The position numbers were made by a program, and so were the translations under genes. The notes below the pieces were generated by a model that saw only the letters and a program-made list of their open reading frames with translations, did no database searches and was not told where the DNA came from. DNA of 64,000 nucleotides from Chloroflexi bacterium bin125 (GTDB taxonomy: Bacteria; Chloroflexota; Dehalococcoidia; Bin125): assembly GCA_002239025.1 (NCBI GenBank), contig MPNM01000002.1, positions 310,001 through 374,000 of the forward strand. The letters are read 5' to 3'. Positions 9,401 to 23,180 of the stretch are shown one piece after another. Positions within the stretch are counted from its first letter, which is position 1. Each line of letters opens with the position of its first letter.

Positions 9401-10207
9401 TCAGCGGCCTTTGAATTCGGCAGGACGCTTCTCTGCGAACGCGGTTGTGCCTTCGCGGGCGTCCTCCGTGGTCATGATCTCAGAATAGAGCTGCGATTCC
9501 AGTGTCATGCCCTCGGCGAAGCCGGACTGGAGCAAGACTCCCTCGTATGCGGCACGCTTCGACGCGCGAACTGCCAGCGGCGCGTTCGAGGCGATCTCCT
9601 CGGCCCATTCTCGAGCGGTCGGCAGCAGCGCATCGGGTGTCGTGACCGCATTGGCCAGCCCGATCCGGTGCGCTTCCTGCGCGTCGAGATGGTTCGCCCG
9701 CAGCAGCAGTTCCAGGGCCTTGCCGAATGGCACATAGCGAGCCAAACGCTGCACCTGACCGCCGCCCGGCAACAGTCCGCGCCTGGGCGCCATTGAGCCA
9801 ATCCGTGCTGTGTCGCTCATGATCCGCAGGTCACACGACAACGCCAGGGCGAACCCGCCGGCCAGACACCAGCCGTTGATCGCGGCAATGACCGGCTTCC
9901 AGGTCTTGTCCGGTCCCCAACTGGAGAGCCCGGAGGCGTTCGACGGATCCGCTTCTCTCTTGATGGCAGATGTGGCCGCGCGGTTGATCTCGTCACTGTG
10001 CGCATCCGGCCGGACCAGGTCGCGTCCCGCGCAAAACGCACGTCCAGCGCCGGTGATGATTGCGACGTGCAACGCGTCGTTCTGTTCAAACTCCGACCAG
10101 AAGTCGTCCAACTGCTCCGACATCTCCGGATTGATCGCGTTCATCCGCTCGGGTCGGTCGAGGGTGATCGTCGCGATCTTGCCGTCGGTTTCGATACGGA
10201 CTGACAT
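9401..10207 (-). CDS. Enoyl-CoA hydratase/isomerase family protein
   Basis: A 268-residue crotonase-fold protein. GAGRAFCAGRDLV and GWCLAGGFALALSCDLRI form the two oxyanion-hole regions. GLLPGGGQVQRLARYVPFGKALELLL is the active-site stretch. One usual catalytic glutamate, in the PE segment before the GxxPGxGG loop, appears replaced (sequence MAPRRG), while a glutamate in ALELLL remains. This makes a classic hydratase less certain, and an isomerase or other crotonase chemistry is possible. It starts 6 bp after the ThiS/MoaD-like gene and is followed by the amidase. Confidence 0.9.
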   Translation of the reverse strand: MSVRIETDGKIATITLDRPERMNAINPEMSEQLDDFWSEFEQNDALHVAIITGAGRAFCAGRDLVRPDAHSDEINRAATSAIKREADPSNASGLSSWGPDKTWKPVIAAINGWCLAGGFALALSCDLRIMSDTARIGSMAPRRGLLPGGGQVQRLARYVPFGKALELLLRANHLDAQEAHRIGLANAVTTPDALLPTAREWAEEIASNAPLAVRASKRAAYEGVLLQSGFAEGMTLESQLYSEIMTTEDAREGTTAFAEKRPAEFKGR

Positions 10208-11872: not shown

Positions 11873-12331
11873 TCACCCCGACATCCCCTTGACGAACTCG
11901 AGCGCGCCCTCCGGATGCGCATGAAAATCTCTTGGCGCATCGATGATGTGGCGCACGATGCCCTCGGCGTCAATCACATAGGTCATCCGCGAAGTGATCC
12001 CGCGCTCTTCGTTGAGGATGCCCCAGGCCTTGCCGGTCTTGCCCCAGGGGAAGTCTCCCAGCAGCGGGAACTCAAGCCCGAGTTCGATCGCGTAGGCCCC
12101 GTTGGCGAATGGTGAGTCGACGGAAATGCCCAGTACCTGGGCGCCGGCCTCCTGGAACTCCTCGTGCAGTTCCCGGAAGCGGCTCAGTTCGTTGGTTCAA
12201 CCACCGGTAAAGGCGAGCACGTACCAGGCCACCACGACTGTCTGGCCGCGATACTCCGACAGCGTGTGCTCCTTGCGGTCGCCGTCCATCAATGTGAAGT
12301 CGGGTGCGACCTGTCCAATCTCGACTGCCAT
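11873..12331 (-). CDS. Selenocysteine-containing peroxiredoxin (in-frame TGA at the peroxidatic position)
   Basis: Reading from the ATG at 12331 through a TGA at 12199-12197 gives 152 residues that align throughout with AhpC/TSA (Bcp-like) peroxiredoxins, which reduce peroxides. The start VGQ-type segment is IGQVAPDFTLMDGD. The active site reads VLAFTGG-U-TNELSRF with Sec at residue 45, where the peroxidatic cysteine normally is. T42 and R115 (ITSRMTYVID) match the catalytic Thr and Arg. Conserved sequence continues after the TGA: AQVLGISVDSPFA, FPLLGDF. The protein has no cysteine at all, so it is a one-Sec type without a resolving thiol. The gene also ends with TGA. A hairpin follows the internal TGA (12147-12180). 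A nonsense mutation is the alternative. Confidence 0.85.
12147..12180 (-). promoter_or_regulatory. SECIS-like hairpin downstream of the peroxiredoxin TGA
   Basis: On the minus strand a 6-bp upper stem GGAACT/AGTTCC closes an 8-nt loop GCACGAGG that starts with G. Below one G-A mismatch lies a 6-bp lower stem GCTTCC/GGAGGC. The loop G is the 30th base after the TGA. This fits the bacterial SECIS model: a short stem-loop in the coding region with a G at the start of the apical loop, roughly 16-37 nt from the Sec codon, recognised by SelB. Confidence 0.7.
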
Positions 12332-17657: not shown

Positions 17658-19190
17658 ATGTCAGAACTTCGTTGGGAACCGCCGCCAAGCGGAGACGCTG
17701 TCCAGCGCGCCGTCGTGCCCGATCGATCGGGAGGCAATGGCGGCTCGGGTGGACCAAGCAGATGGTCAGTCGCGCTGTTGATCTTCGTCATGATCGGAGC
17801 TGCCTTCGCGCTGGGCGTTGGCGTCATGCGAGTAGTCGACGCCAACGACGATTACGGCCGACTATTGCGCAGCTCAAGGGACGGCGGGTCGCCGGCAGCC
17901 ATTCCGGCGGCTGTGCAGCCGTCCGAAGACGAAGACCAGGCGGTCGAGGCCGCTGACACCGACGGCAGAGCCTCACGATTCGCCATCCTCGACGAAATCA
18001 TCGAGGTGCTGGACAAAGACTTTGTCGATCCCGCCAAGTTCGAGTCGCTCGACACTCGCGAAGCCGCGATCAATGGCATCATCGACGCCCTGGAAGACGA
18101 ACACACCGTCTTCATTGATGCCGAACGCTATCGCCTCGCCAGTGAGGACATCGGCGGCTCCTTCGAAGGCATCGGCGCGACCGTCAACTCGGTCGACGGC
18201 GCAATCGTGATTGTCCGCCCCTTCCGCAACTCACCCGCCCAACAATCTGGCATTCGTCCTGGCGACGTGATCCTCGAGGTCGATGGCGAATCGACCGAGG
18301 GCTGGAGCCTGGAGCAGGCAGTCGCAGTCATCCGCGGACCCAGAGGCACAGACGTCGCGCTGCTGGTGCGCCACGCGGACGGCGAGGAAGAGCTGATCAT
18401 CGTCACCCGCGACCGGATTGTGGTGCCCAGCGTCGAATCGCTGCCGATCACCGACCGCTCCGGCAATCCGGTCGCCGACATCGGCTACATCTTGATCACT
18501 CAGTTCACCGAGGACACACGCAGCGAACTGCTCGAGTTACTCGACGGCGCGCGAAACGCGGGATTGGAACAGCTCATCATCGACGTGCGCGGCAATCCCG
18601 GTGGTTTGCTCCGTGCGACGGTCGACACGACCGGCGAGTTTATCGACGAGGGCGTGATCCTGCGTCAGATCGACCGCGAGGGCAACGAAGAAGTGTTCAA
18701 CGATCGCGCCGGTGGCGCCGGTATCGATCTCGAGCTCGTCGTCCTGATCAACGAGCACAGCGCATCCGGCTCCGAGGTTATGGCAGCCGCGTTGCGCGAT
18801 CACGGACGCGCAGTGCTGATCGGCACCACGACCACCGGCAAAGGCACGGTCAATGTGCCGAGACGTCTCTCCGACGGCAGCGTGCTGTACGTCAGCATCG
18901 CTCGATACCTGACGCCCAATAGCGCCCAGGTCGAGGGTGTCGGCGTCGCGCCAGACATCGAGATTGCCATCCCCGAGACCGGGTTCGAAGCCGGACAGGA
19001 CATCCAGTTGTTCGTCGCCATTGAATACCTGCGAGGCGAATACAATCCTGGCGCCGGCGCCGATGACGACTCTGGCGGCAGCGAGCCCGACGAGGTTTCC
19101 GACGAGACGACAGAGGACGGTCAGCAGGGCCAGGAGGGTCAGCAGGAGACTGAGGCGGACGCTGAATCGCAGCAGCAGTCGGAGGAGTAA
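17658..19190 (+). CDS. C-terminal processing peptidase, S41 family (CtpA)
   Basis: A 510-residue membrane-anchored serine protease. One span at residues 38-60 follows a glycine-rich cytoplasmic N-terminus. A PDZ domain lies at about 165-250 (GSFEGIGATVN, SGIRPGDVILEVDGEST). The protease core has the Ser-Lys dyad: S372 in EHSASGSEVM and K395 in TTTTGKGTVNV. The last 40 residues are an acidic, glutamine-rich tail (GQQGQEGQQETEADAE), unusual for the family but like other exported proteins in this window. Such proteases trim C-termini of cell-envelope proteins. Next gene starts 52 bp downstream. Confidence 0.95.
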   Translation: MSELRWEPPPSGDAVQRAVVPDRSGGNGGSGGPSRWSVALLIFVMIGAAFALGVGVMRVVDANDDYGRLLRSSRDGGSPAAIPAAVQPSEDEDQAVEAADTDGRASRFAILDEIIEVLDKDFVDPAKFESLDTREAAINGIIDALEDEHTVFIDAERYRLASEDIGGSFEGIGATVNSVDGAIVIVRPFRNSPAQQSGIRPGDVILEVDGESTEGWSLEQAVAVIRGPRGTDVALLVRHADGEEELIIVTRDRIVVPSVESLPITDRSGNPVADIGYILITQFTEDTRSELLELLDGARNAGLEQLIIDVRGNPGGLLRATVDTTGEFIDEGVILRQIDREGNEEVFNDRAGGAGIDLELVVLINEHSASGSEVMAAALRDHGRAVLIGTTTTGKGTVNVPRRLSDGSVLYVSIARYLTPNSAQVEGVGVAPDIEIAIPETGFEAGQDIQLFVAIEYLRGEYNPGAGADDDSGGSEPDEVSDETTEDGQQGQEGQQETEADAESQQQSEE

Positions 19191-19242: not shown

Positions 19243-20100
19243 GTGATGACATCAAATGCCGACGGTTGGGCACGACCCGAGCTGATCTGCGAAACCGATT
19301 GGCTGGCAGACCACATCGACGATGACGATGTGGTCGTGCTGGACTGTGATCTGCTGGACGGTTACCTGCGACTGCACATTCCCGGAGCGGTCTGGTCGCT
19401 CTCGCGTTACTGGAAGACTGATCCGCGCGATGACTCGCAGATATACGGGATGTCCGACCCTGAGCAGTTTGCGCAGTTGGTCGGACGGCTGGGTATCACT
19501 CCTGACACGACCGTCGTGGCCTACGACGGATCGGGTTCGCTCTACGCGGCGCGGACCTGGTGGACGTTCAACCGCTTCGGACATACCAACTTCAAGATCC
19601 TGCACGGCGGACTCGACAAATGGTACGCCGAAGGGCGTCCGCTCTCGCGCGAGAATTTGCGTCCGCATGCCGTCGAATACCCAACTCCCGCGGCGCCGCA
19701 CGACGACTCAATCTGCAGGCTGGACGACATCCCGGGAGCACTTGCGGACGACAACCACGTCTTCTGGGACGTGCGCTCGGACGGTGAGTGGACCGGCGCC
19801 AACAAGCGCGGCACTCAGCGCGGGGGACGCATCCCCGGCGCCGTCCATCTGGAGTGGCTGCACACCTTGGAGAACCCGGTGCGCACGCTCAAGCCGCCGG
19901 CTGAGCTGCGCCGAATGCTCGGTGACCTGGGTATCACGCCCGAAACCACCGTGACCACCTATTGACAGGGAGGCATCCGTGCGGCGCACGGATACTGGCT
20001 CCTGCAACTGCTCGGCTACAACAACAGCCGAAACTACGACGCGTCCTGGCACGAATACGGCAACGCTCTCGATCACCCCATAGAGACACCGGACGAGTAG
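19243..20100 (+). CDS. Selenocysteine-containing two-domain rhodanese (in-frame TGA at the catalytic position)
   Basis: Reading through the TGA at 19963-19965 yields a 285-residue thiosulfate/3-mercaptopyruvate-type sulfurtransferase. The N-terminal rhodanese domain (about 20-135: VVVLDCDLLDGYLRLHIPGA, FKILHGGLDKW) has Asp in its loop (AYDGSGSLYA) and is non-catalytic. The C-terminal domain (165-275) has FWDVRSDGEW, GGRIPGAVHLEW and the active loop TTY-U-QGGIRAAHGYW with Sec at residue 241, where the persulfide-forming cysteine belongs. The family's conserved ending LLGYNNSRNYDASWHEYGN lies after the TGA in the same frame and ends at TAG. A strong 8-bp hairpin follows the TGA (19975-19993). 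A disabled gene is the alternative but would need loss at exactly this codon. Confidence 0.88.
19975..19993 (+). promoter_or_regulatory. SECIS-like hairpin downstream of the rhodanese TGA
   Basis: A perfect 8-bp stem ATCCGTGC/GCACGGAT closes a 3-nt loop GGC. The first loop base is G, at the 18th position after the TGA. Stem length, loop size, loop G and distance all fall inside the bacterial SECIS model. It lies wholly within coding sequence and keeps the protein motif GIRAAHG. Confidence 0.75.
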
Positions 20101-20222: not shown

Positions 20223-21458
20223 CTAGCCCTCGAGCAGCTCCGCCAGCGCCGCTTCGACCTCGGCCAGTGGCGCGAATGCTTCGAATCGCGCGACGACCAC
20301 GCCCTGGGCGTTGACTATGAACGTCCACTCGTCAGTGTGCAGGCCCCACTCCTCGAGGATTGGCGTCTCGATCGGTTCCTCGCCCAGGCGCACCTGCTCG
20401 GGATTCTCGAACAGGTCGACGTGGACGTAGTTTGCGGCGTCGCCGAAGATGCCGCGCACCTCCGACAGCACCTCAGCCTGCGGTCCACAGAAGGCGTTTG
20501 TGCAGAATCCCGGTGAAGCGAAGACCACCACGAACGGCTTGTCCGCTCCGACCGCGTCCGCCAGTGAGATCAAGTACAGACCCGGGTCGGGAGTTTCGCC
20601 GGTGGAGAGATCGGCGATGTTCGCCACATCGGTCAGCGTCCGGCTCTGAGACGGCGGCGCAGTGTCGCCGACCGAGGGCGCTAAAGTATCGAGCGGCACA
20701 TCAATCGCGATACCAACATCGTCGAAACCGGCTTCAGAAGGTATGTGCAGGATCAGATTCCAGCGTCCAGGATCGGTGAAGTTGACCGTCGTGACATGGA
20801 ATCCGCGGACTCCGTCGGGGAAGTGAGAGAAGCGTGCGACCACTTCCTGCATCTCACCAGGTGCATCCTCGTGCAGCACAGTGATACCGAGCGCCGGGAA
20901 CTCGACCAGACCGACCGGCCCCTCAATCACAACCGAGATACGGTGCGTGCCCGGCGCCAGGTCAGGCGTGCCCAGGGCGATCGTGTAGCCATCGTCTGAT
21001 ACGTAGACGGGGTAACCCGAGTCGCGCAGCAGCTGCAGTCGCGGACTGAGATCGTCGTAGTTGGCCTCCTCGATGATGCCAACGGCCATGCCGCCTTCCA
21101 TGCCGCCCATACCGTCATCGGCCTGCTGCTGCATTACTTCTTGCTCGGCCTCGGCCTGCTCGGCCATCTCCATGTCGGCCTGCTGCTCTTGTTGCTCAGC
21201 AGGTTCTGCTGCCGGAGTGGCTGCGCGCGAGCTAGTAGTCGAGGTACCCGAGCTCGAAGTTGCCGTGCTGGTCGATGTCGACTCAGCCGCAGCCTGTTCT
21301 TGCTGATCCTGTTGTTCCTGCTGCTGGTCGTCCGACGTCGTCGTACACGCCGACGCGGTCAGCAGAGCGGCCAGGGCAAAACCCAGCAGTCCGAGCCATC
21401 GCCGGCTCAGTCGCCAACGATGGACCCCACGCCGCGAAACCTTATGAAGTGCTGTCAT
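20223..21458 (-). CDS. Exported lipoprotein with C-terminal thioredoxin-fold (CX4CGP) domain
   Basis: A 411-residue predicted lipoprotein: basic start, hydrophobic LGLLGFALAALLTASAC and lipobox cysteine C38. Residues 40-120 are a Ser/Thr/Gln/Glu-rich, methionine-containing tether. A beta-rich middle (VYVSDDGYTIALGTPDL, HRISVVIEGPVG) is of unknown family. The C-terminal ~125 residues resemble a redoxin: KPFVVVFASPGFCTNAFCGPQ, with C319 and C324 in a CX4C-GP arrangement, then WTFIVNAQGVVVARFE. This domain probably does thiol-disulfide chemistry outside the membrane. It converges with the Sec-rhodanese gene and lies just downstream of a second exported thioredoxin-fold lipoprotein. Confidence 0.82.
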   Translation of the reverse strand: MTALHKVSRRGVHRWRLSRRWLGLLGFALAALLTASACTTTSDDQQQEQQDQQEQAAAESTSTSTATSSSGTSTTSSRAATPAAEPAEQQEQQADMEMAEQAEAEQEVMQQQADDGMGGMEGGMAVGIIEEANYDDLSPRLQLLRDSGYPVYVSDDGYTIALGTPDLAPGTHRISVVIEGPVGLVEFPALGITVLHEDAPGEMQEVVARFSHFPDGVRGFHVTTVNFTDPGRWNLILHIPSEAGFDDVGIAIDVPLDTLAPSVGDTAPPSQSRTLTDVANIADLSTGETPDPGLYLISLADAVGADKPFVVVFASPGFCTNAFCGPQAEVLSEVRGIFGDAANYVHVDLFENPEQVRLGEEPIETPILEEWGLHTDEWTFIVNAQGVVVARFEAFAPLAEVEAALAELLEG

Positions 21459-21503
21459 GAAACCCCTCGCTCGATCGGTTGGGAAGCATCCCGTTAATCA
21501 ACG

Positions 21504-23180
21504 CTACTCTCCACCCACGTATGAACCGAATGTGAATGCGAACATGCGGAACTGGTCGGAGTCGGAGCGGAGCTTTAGCTCATGCTCCGACCACTCGGGC
21601 AGGAAGACCAGTCGATACAGGTCGTTCTCGGTCACGCGAATGTACGAGCGGCCCTCGTCGTCCCACAGAATGTGGCTGCCTGCCTCGTTCGGGAACAGCC
21701 AGCGACCATCCAGCTCGACGTAGACCCGGAACGGCTCTCCGTCCTCTGCCACGGTCAGCACGACATTTGCCGTGCGTCCACGTATCAGCAGGGCGACATA
21801 GTCTTCGAGGTCGTCCGTCGTTCGCGCATGGACGATCGCTTCATCCTCGATCCGCCAGAGTCCCTCCAGGTACCAGAAGTTGTGTTCGCGTTCTGACGTG
21901 TCTACGTCGAAGTACAGCGTGTCTATCCCTGTGCCAGTGAGGAAGTAGGCGTCCTGACCCGCGTACGGTCCGCCGCTTCCCACGTTGCGCTGCCAGCCCA
22001 TGTAGAGCTCGCGCGTTTGACGCGGCGTGCCGCCCTCTCTCGTCGGGACTGGCGCGCTCACCCCGAAAGGAACATCGGACAGATCCTTCCCGACCGCTTC
22101 CAGTGCCTCGCGAATCGCCCGCTCGGTCTCCTGGTAGTGCCCCTCGCCAATGTGGTCGTAGCGGATGCCCATCGGCGAATCGTCCGTCGGCCCGATCAGG
22201 AACTTGCGCGGCCACCAGCGATTCTGAAATGCGCGCCAGGTCCGGTAGTCGTTGTCGATCGCGACGAGGTACTCGATGTTGTGCTCGGCATTCGCCGCGC
22301 GGACGTTTTCGATTCGCTCTTCGAACGCAAACTCCGGCGTGTGCACGCCGATAATCACCAACCCGTGATCGCGATACTTGCGATCCCATTCGGTAAGGAA
22401 GGGCAGCGTGCGGATGCAATTGATGCAGGTGTAGGTCCAGAAGTCGATCAGGACGATGTTCCCCTTGGCCAACTCCAGCGCAATCGACGTCTCGTCCCCA
22501 TTCAGCCAGCCGTTCAGGCCCGTCAGCTCCGCCGTCGTCGCCTGAGCGCTGATTTCCTCAGCCCGAAGCCGCAGCCGATCATCCTCTGTGGGCTCTTGCT
22601 CCTGCGGCTCAGCGGCCTGCTCAGATTCTCCGCTCGATTCCACCTGCCGCTCTTCTTCCGCTTCCTGCTGCTCGACCGGTTCGTCTTGCTCGTCATCAGC
22701 CTGCAGATCCTCGTTCTCAGCCCCCGAATCTGATTGCTGCTGCTGATCGCTTCCTTGTGTCGATTCCTCCTGCGGCTGTTTCTCGCCTGCATCGGACTGA
22801 GCCGAGTCCTTCTCGCCCTCGTCGTCCTCGTCCTTCTCGCCAGTGGAACTCACCGTCGCCTGGCCCTGTGCTCCGTCGTCCTGGCTGTCTTCGTCGCCCA
22901 CGGATTGCTGCTCGCCGCGTTGCTGTGCTGTTTGCTGTTGATCGTCCTCTTCCTGCGCGGAAGTGCTTTGAGATGTCGTCTCCCGCGATTCCGATTGCTC
23001 GTCGGTACGCGAGGTCGCGGTTGACGACTCGGACTGCTGTTGATCTTGTTGTTGGTCCTGTTGCTGTTCTTGTTGCTCCTGGTCCTGTGGCGCGTCGTCG
23101 TCCGACGAGCAGGCCACGAACAACGCGGTGATCAGAAGGATTGCGAGTATGCCGAAACCGGCGAGCCGAGTGTGTTTCAT
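21504..23180 (-). CDS. Exported lipoprotein with DipZ-like thioredoxin domain
   Basis: A 558-residue predicted lipoprotein with lipobox cysteine C24 (LITALFVAC). Residues 25-210 form an extreme Gln/Glu/Ser/Asp-rich linker without structure-forming hydrophobics. The thioredoxin domain follows at about 218-370: NIVLIDFWTYTCINCIRTLP with the redox pair C252/C255 (CINC), then VIIGVHTPEFAFE. The last ~170 residues (YFLTGTGIDTLYFDVDTSE, FRMFAFTFGSYVGGE) match the C-terminal domain of DipZ-type proteins. In DipZ these domains are fused to a CcdA-like membrane reductase; that part is missing here, so electrons must come from another protein. Confidence 0.88.
   Translation of the reverse strand: MKHTRLAGFGILAILLITALFVACSSDDDAPQDQEQQEQQQDQQQDQQQSESSTATSRTDEQSESRETTSQSTSAQEEDDQQQTAQQRGEQQSVGDEDSQDDGAQGQATVSSTGEKDEDDEGEKDSAQSDAGEKQPQEESTQGSDQQQQSDSGAENEDLQADDEQDEPVEQQEAEEERQVESSGESEQAAEPQEQEPTEDDRLRLRAEEISAQATTAELTGLNGWLNGDETSIALELAKGNIVLIDFWTYTCINCIRTLPFLTEWDRKYRDHGLVIIGVHTPEFAFEERIENVRAANAEHNIEYLVAIDNDYRTWRAFQNRWWPRKFLIGPTDDSPMGIRYDHIGEGHYQETERAIREALEAVGKDLSDVPFGVSAPVPTREGGTPRQTRELYMGWQRNVGSGGPYAGQDAYFLTGTGIDTLYFDVDTSEREHNFWYLEGLWRIEDEAIVHARTTDDLEDYVALLIRGRTANVVLTVAEDGEPFRVYVELDGRWLFPNEAGSHILWDDEGRSYIRVTENDLYRLVFLPEWSEHELKLRSDSDQFRMFAFTFGSYVGGE

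Follow-up and report, generated by a model that had tools for sequence, protein, structure and literature searches.

A likely selenocysteine-containing two-domain rhodanese shared by marine Dehalococcoidia

A rhodanese gene with an in-frame TGA

Comparison of sequences indicates that the gene at 19246-20100 of the 64,000-nucleotide stretch of DNA analysed here (the window) very probably encodes a sulfurtransferase-type enzyme with selenocysteine (Sec) at its catalytic site. The frame from 19243 reads a protein of 285 residues with a single TGA (19963-19965), which lies in the context TVTTYUQGGIRAAHG and is followed by 44 more codons and a TAG at 20098-20100. On re-reading, frame and TGA were the same as those given in a preliminary description of this DNA, which had also claimed that the last ~45 residues of the family follow in frame. 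It had further proposed that the reading be checked by alignment with SseA/TST-type proteins, by SECIS prediction behind the TGA and by a look for Cys or Sec forms in relatives, and the results of these checks are given below. The features discussed are listed in Table 1.

Table 1. Coordinates of the rhodanese gene, its recoding features and its neighbours in the window.
Feature	Position	Strand	Evidence
Two-domain rhodanese (sulfurtransferase), probable selenoprotein gene	19246..20100	+	PF00581 in two stretches, 1.2e-32; orthologues; TAG stop
In-frame TGA, probable selenocysteine at the catalytic (persulfide) position	19963..19965	+	TGA in 19/19 family orthologues, TGC/TGT in Cys relatives; aligned with catalytic Cys of 1uar, 3hwi, 3aax
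Bacterial SECIS hairpin ATCCGTGC-GGC-GCACGGAT	19975..19993	+	Paired in Sec but not in Cys forms; compensated base changes in the stem; silent-site divergence 0.16 (0.52 upstream)
S41 (CtpA-like) protease gene, 5' of rhodanese	17658..19190	+	Neighbour conserved in own genus and nearest sister genus
Redoxin-like gene, convergent, 3' of rhodanese	20223..21458	-	Motif only ('FASPGFCTNAFCGPQ'), no Pfam match; conserved neighbour in own family and f15
Thioredoxin-fold predicted lipoprotein (TlpA-like; Thioredoxin_8 PF13905, Thioredoxin_10 PF17991)	21504..23180	-	Conserved neighbour in own family and f15

Translation more likely begins with the ATG at 19246, because residue 2 is where most orthologues start matching, and a stretch resembling a ribosome site (AAAGGGA) lies shortly 5' of it; the GTG at 19243 is possible. 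Numbered from this GTG, as is done here, the Sec residue is U241, corresponding to U240 when counted from the ATG. The rhodanese family PF00581 was matched twice in Pfam, and the catalytic residue sits in the second of the two domains. In domain 1, the loop matching the active loop reads AYDGSGS and has no Cys, and U241 is therefore the sole candidate nucleophile. The model for the 3-mercaptopyruvate sulfurtransferase of the E. coli type (NF008557) scored 111.7 bits, which is under the NCBIfam cut-off of 250 bits; the protein is a relative of SseA and not an SseA equivalog.

Full-length alignments to Cys sulfurtransferases, including 1uar and mycobacterial proteins, gave E-values of 2e-35 to 5e-43, with U241 falling on the catalytic Cys of the solved rhodaneses 1uar, 3hwi and 3aax. 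An AlphaFold model, in which Cys was put in for Sec (pLDDT 90, pTM 0.89), has the rhodanese layout with a strand at 236-240, the active loop from 241 and a helix at 245-256. Its closest solved folds are thiosulfate sulfurtransferases, 1uar being the best (TM 0.87), and in the model the predicted location of U241 matches the active-site loop of a thiosulfate-sulfurtransferase-like fold. The fold is shared with 1uar from Thermus thermophilus and with CysA2, CysA3 and SseA from M. tuberculosis (3hwi, 3aax and 3hzu) at TM 0.85-0.87, but these proteins carry Cys and a loop of the CRIGER/CRIAER type, whereas the rhodanese described here carries Sec and UQGGIR. The active loop is CRKGVT in classical thiosulfate sulfurtransferases (TST) and CGSGVT in 3-mercaptopyruvate sulfurtransferases (MST), and since UQGGIR is neither of the two, substrate preference is not readable from it.

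Conservation of the TGA codon

The gene is present in 19 of 20 genomes of the taxonomic family, the same 20 genomes being covered by a search at the level of the order, and in all 19 one TGA is the only internal stop, at identities of 61-100%. The family genome without the gene (G001) is 88% complete and consists of 290 contigs. An apparent Cys copy at a contig end of this genome was discarded, as it reads TYCGGGIAASND and corresponds to the CGGGIAA paralogue, a different gene. Across the class, a homologue at E <= 1e-45 was detected in 178 of 393 genomes. Relatives carry either Sec or Cys at the TGA column: TGA occurs in 72 genes (from ~70 genomes; near-copies from a second collection are left out of this count) and TGC or TGT in several dozen Cys genes, and every fetched locus has one of these codons. 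Outside the class, homologues among the matches listed were nearly all Cys forms, and the two Sec forms (G493 and G570) both belong to one other family of the phylum. The named relatives are metagenome-assembled Dehalococcoidia or Chloroflexota, and several of their bins would come from sponges, going by the isolate codes RHO and IRC.

TAG or TAA codons inside the matches of three genomes were considered as further recoded stops and rejected; codon 241 is TGC in two of these genomes (G327, G087) and TGA in the third (G302), and as tblastn gave no other stop in the aligned part, the TAG/TAA most likely terminate these genes in the normal way. Sec and Cys versions of the rhodanese were also encountered together within single genomes (L113 and L166 in G348; L129 and L162 in G370).

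A SECIS hairpin behind the TGA

A bacterial SECIS is a hairpin just 3' of the UGA with G at loop positions 1 and 2. Prediction behind the TGA gave a SECIS-like hairpin with a stem of 7-8 bp and a three-base loop that starts 17 nt past the UGA and has G as its first two bases. Out of 7 pairs, mostly 6-7 are kept in the 68 distinct Sec forms versus 0-5 in the 29 Cys forms. When fold stability was compared with that of synonymous recodings, drawn with each gene's own codon use, the median z was -1.63 (mean -1.53; n=68) in the case of Sec forms and 0.04 (mean 0.00; n=29) in the case of Cys forms. Certain single Sec forms (e.g. L038, L066, L079) are no more stable than synonymous shuffles because GC-rich coding sequence folds well regardless, and the case for a SECIS thus rests on the set. 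Compensatory changes were found for one outer stem pair (C-G 31, G-C 6, A-U 2) and for a mid-stem pair (U-A 36, G-U 4). At +5, Arg is encoded by CGT in 36 of 46 distinct Sec sequences, compared with a single one among 28 Cys sequences, L134, which is a close sister of a Sec form. Between the sisters L122 (Sec) and L134 (Cys) of genus g58, the local fold weakens from -13.5 to -4.1 kcal/mol, the SECIS being intact in the former and decayed in the latter.

For genus g1 taken together with its nearest sister genus, pN/pS amounted to 0.121 before the UGA and to 0.130 in the 27 codons past the hairpin, and the similarity of both values argues that selection behind the UGA acts on the protein. Across the 14 codons of the hairpin in the same genera, pS was 0.16 versus 0.52, a threefold drop, and therefore the RNA is constrained too.

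In family f2 (L113, L115, L118, L119, L125, L128), an otherwise orthologous Sec rhodanese has a different hairpin a few bases farther 3', with a 7-bp stem, a four-base loop and compensatory arms of its own. As read from the sequences, it is a relocated recoding signal within an unchanged protein.

Selenocysteine machinery of the genome

The genome holding the window (3.68 Mb, 66 contigs, 96.7% complete) encodes SelA (8.7e-155), SelB (5.9e-98, over the cut-off), SelD (7.2e-105) and a tRNA-Sec with anticodon UCA (66.4 bits), so that absence of this machinery, which according to the preliminary description would speak against a selenoprotein, is excluded. The selA gene is located ~52 kb from the rhodanese gene, which does not adjoin sel genes. 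A selA match was obtained for 52 of 54 Sec-form genomes tested, that in G356 being a fragment only, and for 17 of 24 Cys-form genomes; the two Sec-form genomes without a match are 71% and 78% complete. The SelD gene of the genome (C5:154737-155678; L019) has an in-frame TGA of its own and probably encodes a Sec-containing selenophosphate synthetase.

Neighbouring genes

The block of thioredoxin-fold and redoxin-like genes is convergent to the rhodanese gene here and on the same strand in family f15, and is thus inverted between the families. In f15, these neighbours adjoin Sec and Cys forms of the rhodanese alike; the link covers two families and is independent of Sec. Both products of 20223-23180 (-) are predicted lipoproteins with Gln-rich stretches. 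The adjacent conserved thioredoxin-fold genes are a weak hint at a thiol-redox partner, and since the neighbours look exported while no evident signal peptide was seen in the rhodanese, any direct partnership is conjecture.

Exchange of Sec and Cys during evolution

A quick maximum likelihood tree, built from 116 proteins with the Sec/Cys column masked and with SH-aLRT as the only support, requires 11 exchanges between Sec and Cys, of which at least 8 are imposed by well-supported branches; with shuffled labels the number was 39. Rooting on CRIGER-type paralogues places Cys at the base with Sec arising within, and Sec losses are found in families f2, f15, f30, f33, f50/f68 and f59. Sec as the root state, as suggested by a first tree of close relatives only, was abandoned once a tree that also included out-of-class Cys forms had Cys as its basal state. 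Provisionally, Sec would have arisen in a Cys background and then reverted to Cys repeatedly, the hairpin decaying alongside; number and direction of the changes are provisional because sampling was uneven (most of the top Sec matches, only part of the Cys matches) and many deep forks are open.

Proposed mechanism and alternative explanations

With UGA behaving as a sense codon, a conserved SECIS hairpin behind it and SelA, SelB, SelD and tRNA-Sec encoded in the genome, the UGA is very probably decoded as Sec along the usual bacterial pathway, in which SelB carries Sec-tRNA-Sec to the ribosome at the hairpin. In rhodaneses, the catalytic residue accepts sulfane sulfur from a donor molecule, carries it and releases it to an acceptor thiol. 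By analogy, the detailed sulfur-transfer chemistry probably involves a selenenyl-sulfide carrier: the selenolate of U241 would attack the sulfane sulfur carried by thiosulfate, 3-mercaptopyruvate or a persulfide as donor, and the sulfur would be kept within the UQGGIR loop as selenenyl sulfide (Se-SH) before being handed on to an acceptor thiol, for example that of a thioredoxin-like protein. Sec in place of Cys might provide a faster nucleophile that is able to recover from over-oxidation.

A TGA that arose by nonsense mutation in a pseudogene, or through faulty sequencing or assembly, has the stop codon in its favour and nothing further; this reading is refuted by the recurrence of TGA in all 19 family orthologues and in 72 genes from ~70 genomes overall, as well as by the downstream codons (mostly 40-47), which stay in frame and under purifying selection; for these reasons the TGA is not due to chance. 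The preliminary description had judged a chance nonsense mutation very unlikely, and its caveat of a read error is now excluded by independent genomes with the same TGA. Equally negligible is the probability that TGA is reassigned throughout the genome, for instance to Trp, instead of being recoded locally. Nothing specific suggests such a reassignment, the sole UCA anticodon seen being that of tRNA-Sec, and it is refuted by window genes that end with TGA, such as an enoyl-CoA hydratase-like ORF at 9401-10207(-) and a peroxiredoxin gene at 11873-12331(-), by several rhodanese orthologues that terminate with TGA and by the codon at the Sec column, which is never TGG. It also seems very unlikely that the UGA serves as a selenium-sensing switch, with Sec inserted under ample selenium only, while an important stopped product of ~240 residues has a role of its own. 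UGA decoding by means of a SECIS is always in competition with termination, as is well established, but judging from the model, a chain ending at the UGA would lack the active loop with its catalytic residue as well as the final helices and strand of domain 2; the stopped product should therefore not be an enzyme, and no conserved feature suggests a use for it.

Delivery of selenium is a live alternative to sulfur transfer, although weaker and improbable in our view. In that case the Sec rhodanese would bind reduced selenium as diselenide or perselenide and feed SelD instead of moving sulfur. SelD is encoded in the genome, and Cys rhodaneses bind selenium 1:1 as perselenide in vitro and have been proposed as selenium donors for selenophosphate synthesis (PMC9369223). 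However, Cys orthologues occur in genomes without a selA match (e.g. G162, G051, G061, G128, G141), and therefore the role in at least those genomes cannot serve Sec synthesis; the location of the rhodanese gene away from the sel genes also argues against selenium delivery.

Relation to known Sec rhodaneses

Sec-containing rhodanese-related sulfurtransferases were reported from the Sargasso Sea in 2005 (COG2897, three sequences, with a SECIS drawn for one of them; PMC1088965) and from the GOS data in 2008 (eight cd01449 and one COG2897; PMC2398784). The preliminary description had named rhodanese-related proteins among the selenoprotein families of bacterial and marine sequence surveys. In a 2026 review, the family from the Sargasso Sea appears under rhodanese form 4, with UxxG and MCY3690685.1 (PMC13188914). 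The present gene shares with these sequences the two-domain rhodanese architecture, Sec, the UxxG motif (here UQGG), a bacterial SECIS behind the UGA and the marine source, and by motif and architecture therefore belongs to an already-known kind. The other forms of the review (form 1 UxxS, form 2 UxxG, form 3 CxU and form 5 TsoB) also combine a rhodanese domain with Sec and are set apart by the review's filing (PMC13188914). Selenium-substituted (perselenide) Cys rhodanese has the same fold and selenium in the active site, but its selenium is attached to Cys post-translationally, whereas here Sec is encoded (PMC9369223).

In contrast to the few metagenome sequences of the earlier surveys, the present set comes from numerous genomes within a single class and includes Sec as well as Cys orthologues. 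Beyond what PMC1088965, PMC2398784 and PMC13188914 show, the present data add the bacterial group that carries the gene, its distribution over the class, the recurrent exchange of Sec and Cys accompanied by decay of the SECIS, and the displaced SECIS of one family; a search of the literature on Chloroflexota or SAR202 selenoproteins gave nothing on a Sec rhodanese. The Sec rhodanese appears widespread in, and repeatedly lost from, one bacterial class, the Dehalococcoidia. The many related Sec and Cys orthologues, among them the sister pair L122/L134 within one genus, allow enzyme-versus-enzyme testing of why some sulfurtransferases use selenium, while SECIS decay and relocation can be traced in this clade at the level of bases. 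Routine gene calling would truncate the enzyme just 5' of the catalytic residue throughout the group.

A broader picture, which we regard as speculative and rather unlikely, is that the Sec rhodanese found across the class is an enzyme specialised in handling selenium or persulfides, either delivering selenium to SelD or acting as an oxidation-proof sulfur relay to the neighbouring thioredoxin-fold proteins, in which at least 8 switches between Sec and Cys (11 in the best tree, for the most part Sec losses) would have left natural matched pairs and the SECIS of f2 would have shifted within an unchanged protein.

A selenoprotein candidate of the peroxiredoxin family

The preliminary description had counted the rhodanese as the second selenoprotein of the window, and the other one is the peroxiredoxin 11873-12331(-). 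A scan of the window for TGA genes, based on GC at codon positions, gave these two as clear cases, although such a crude scan may miss others. The peroxiredoxin (PF00578, 2.5e-35) has its TGA at 12197-12199 within the motif FTGGU, which fits the known TxxU Prx selenoproteins, and one TGA is present in 18 of 18 family orthologues at identities down to 42%. In several genomes of the genus, the peroxiredoxin and rhodanese genes are ~7 kb apart.
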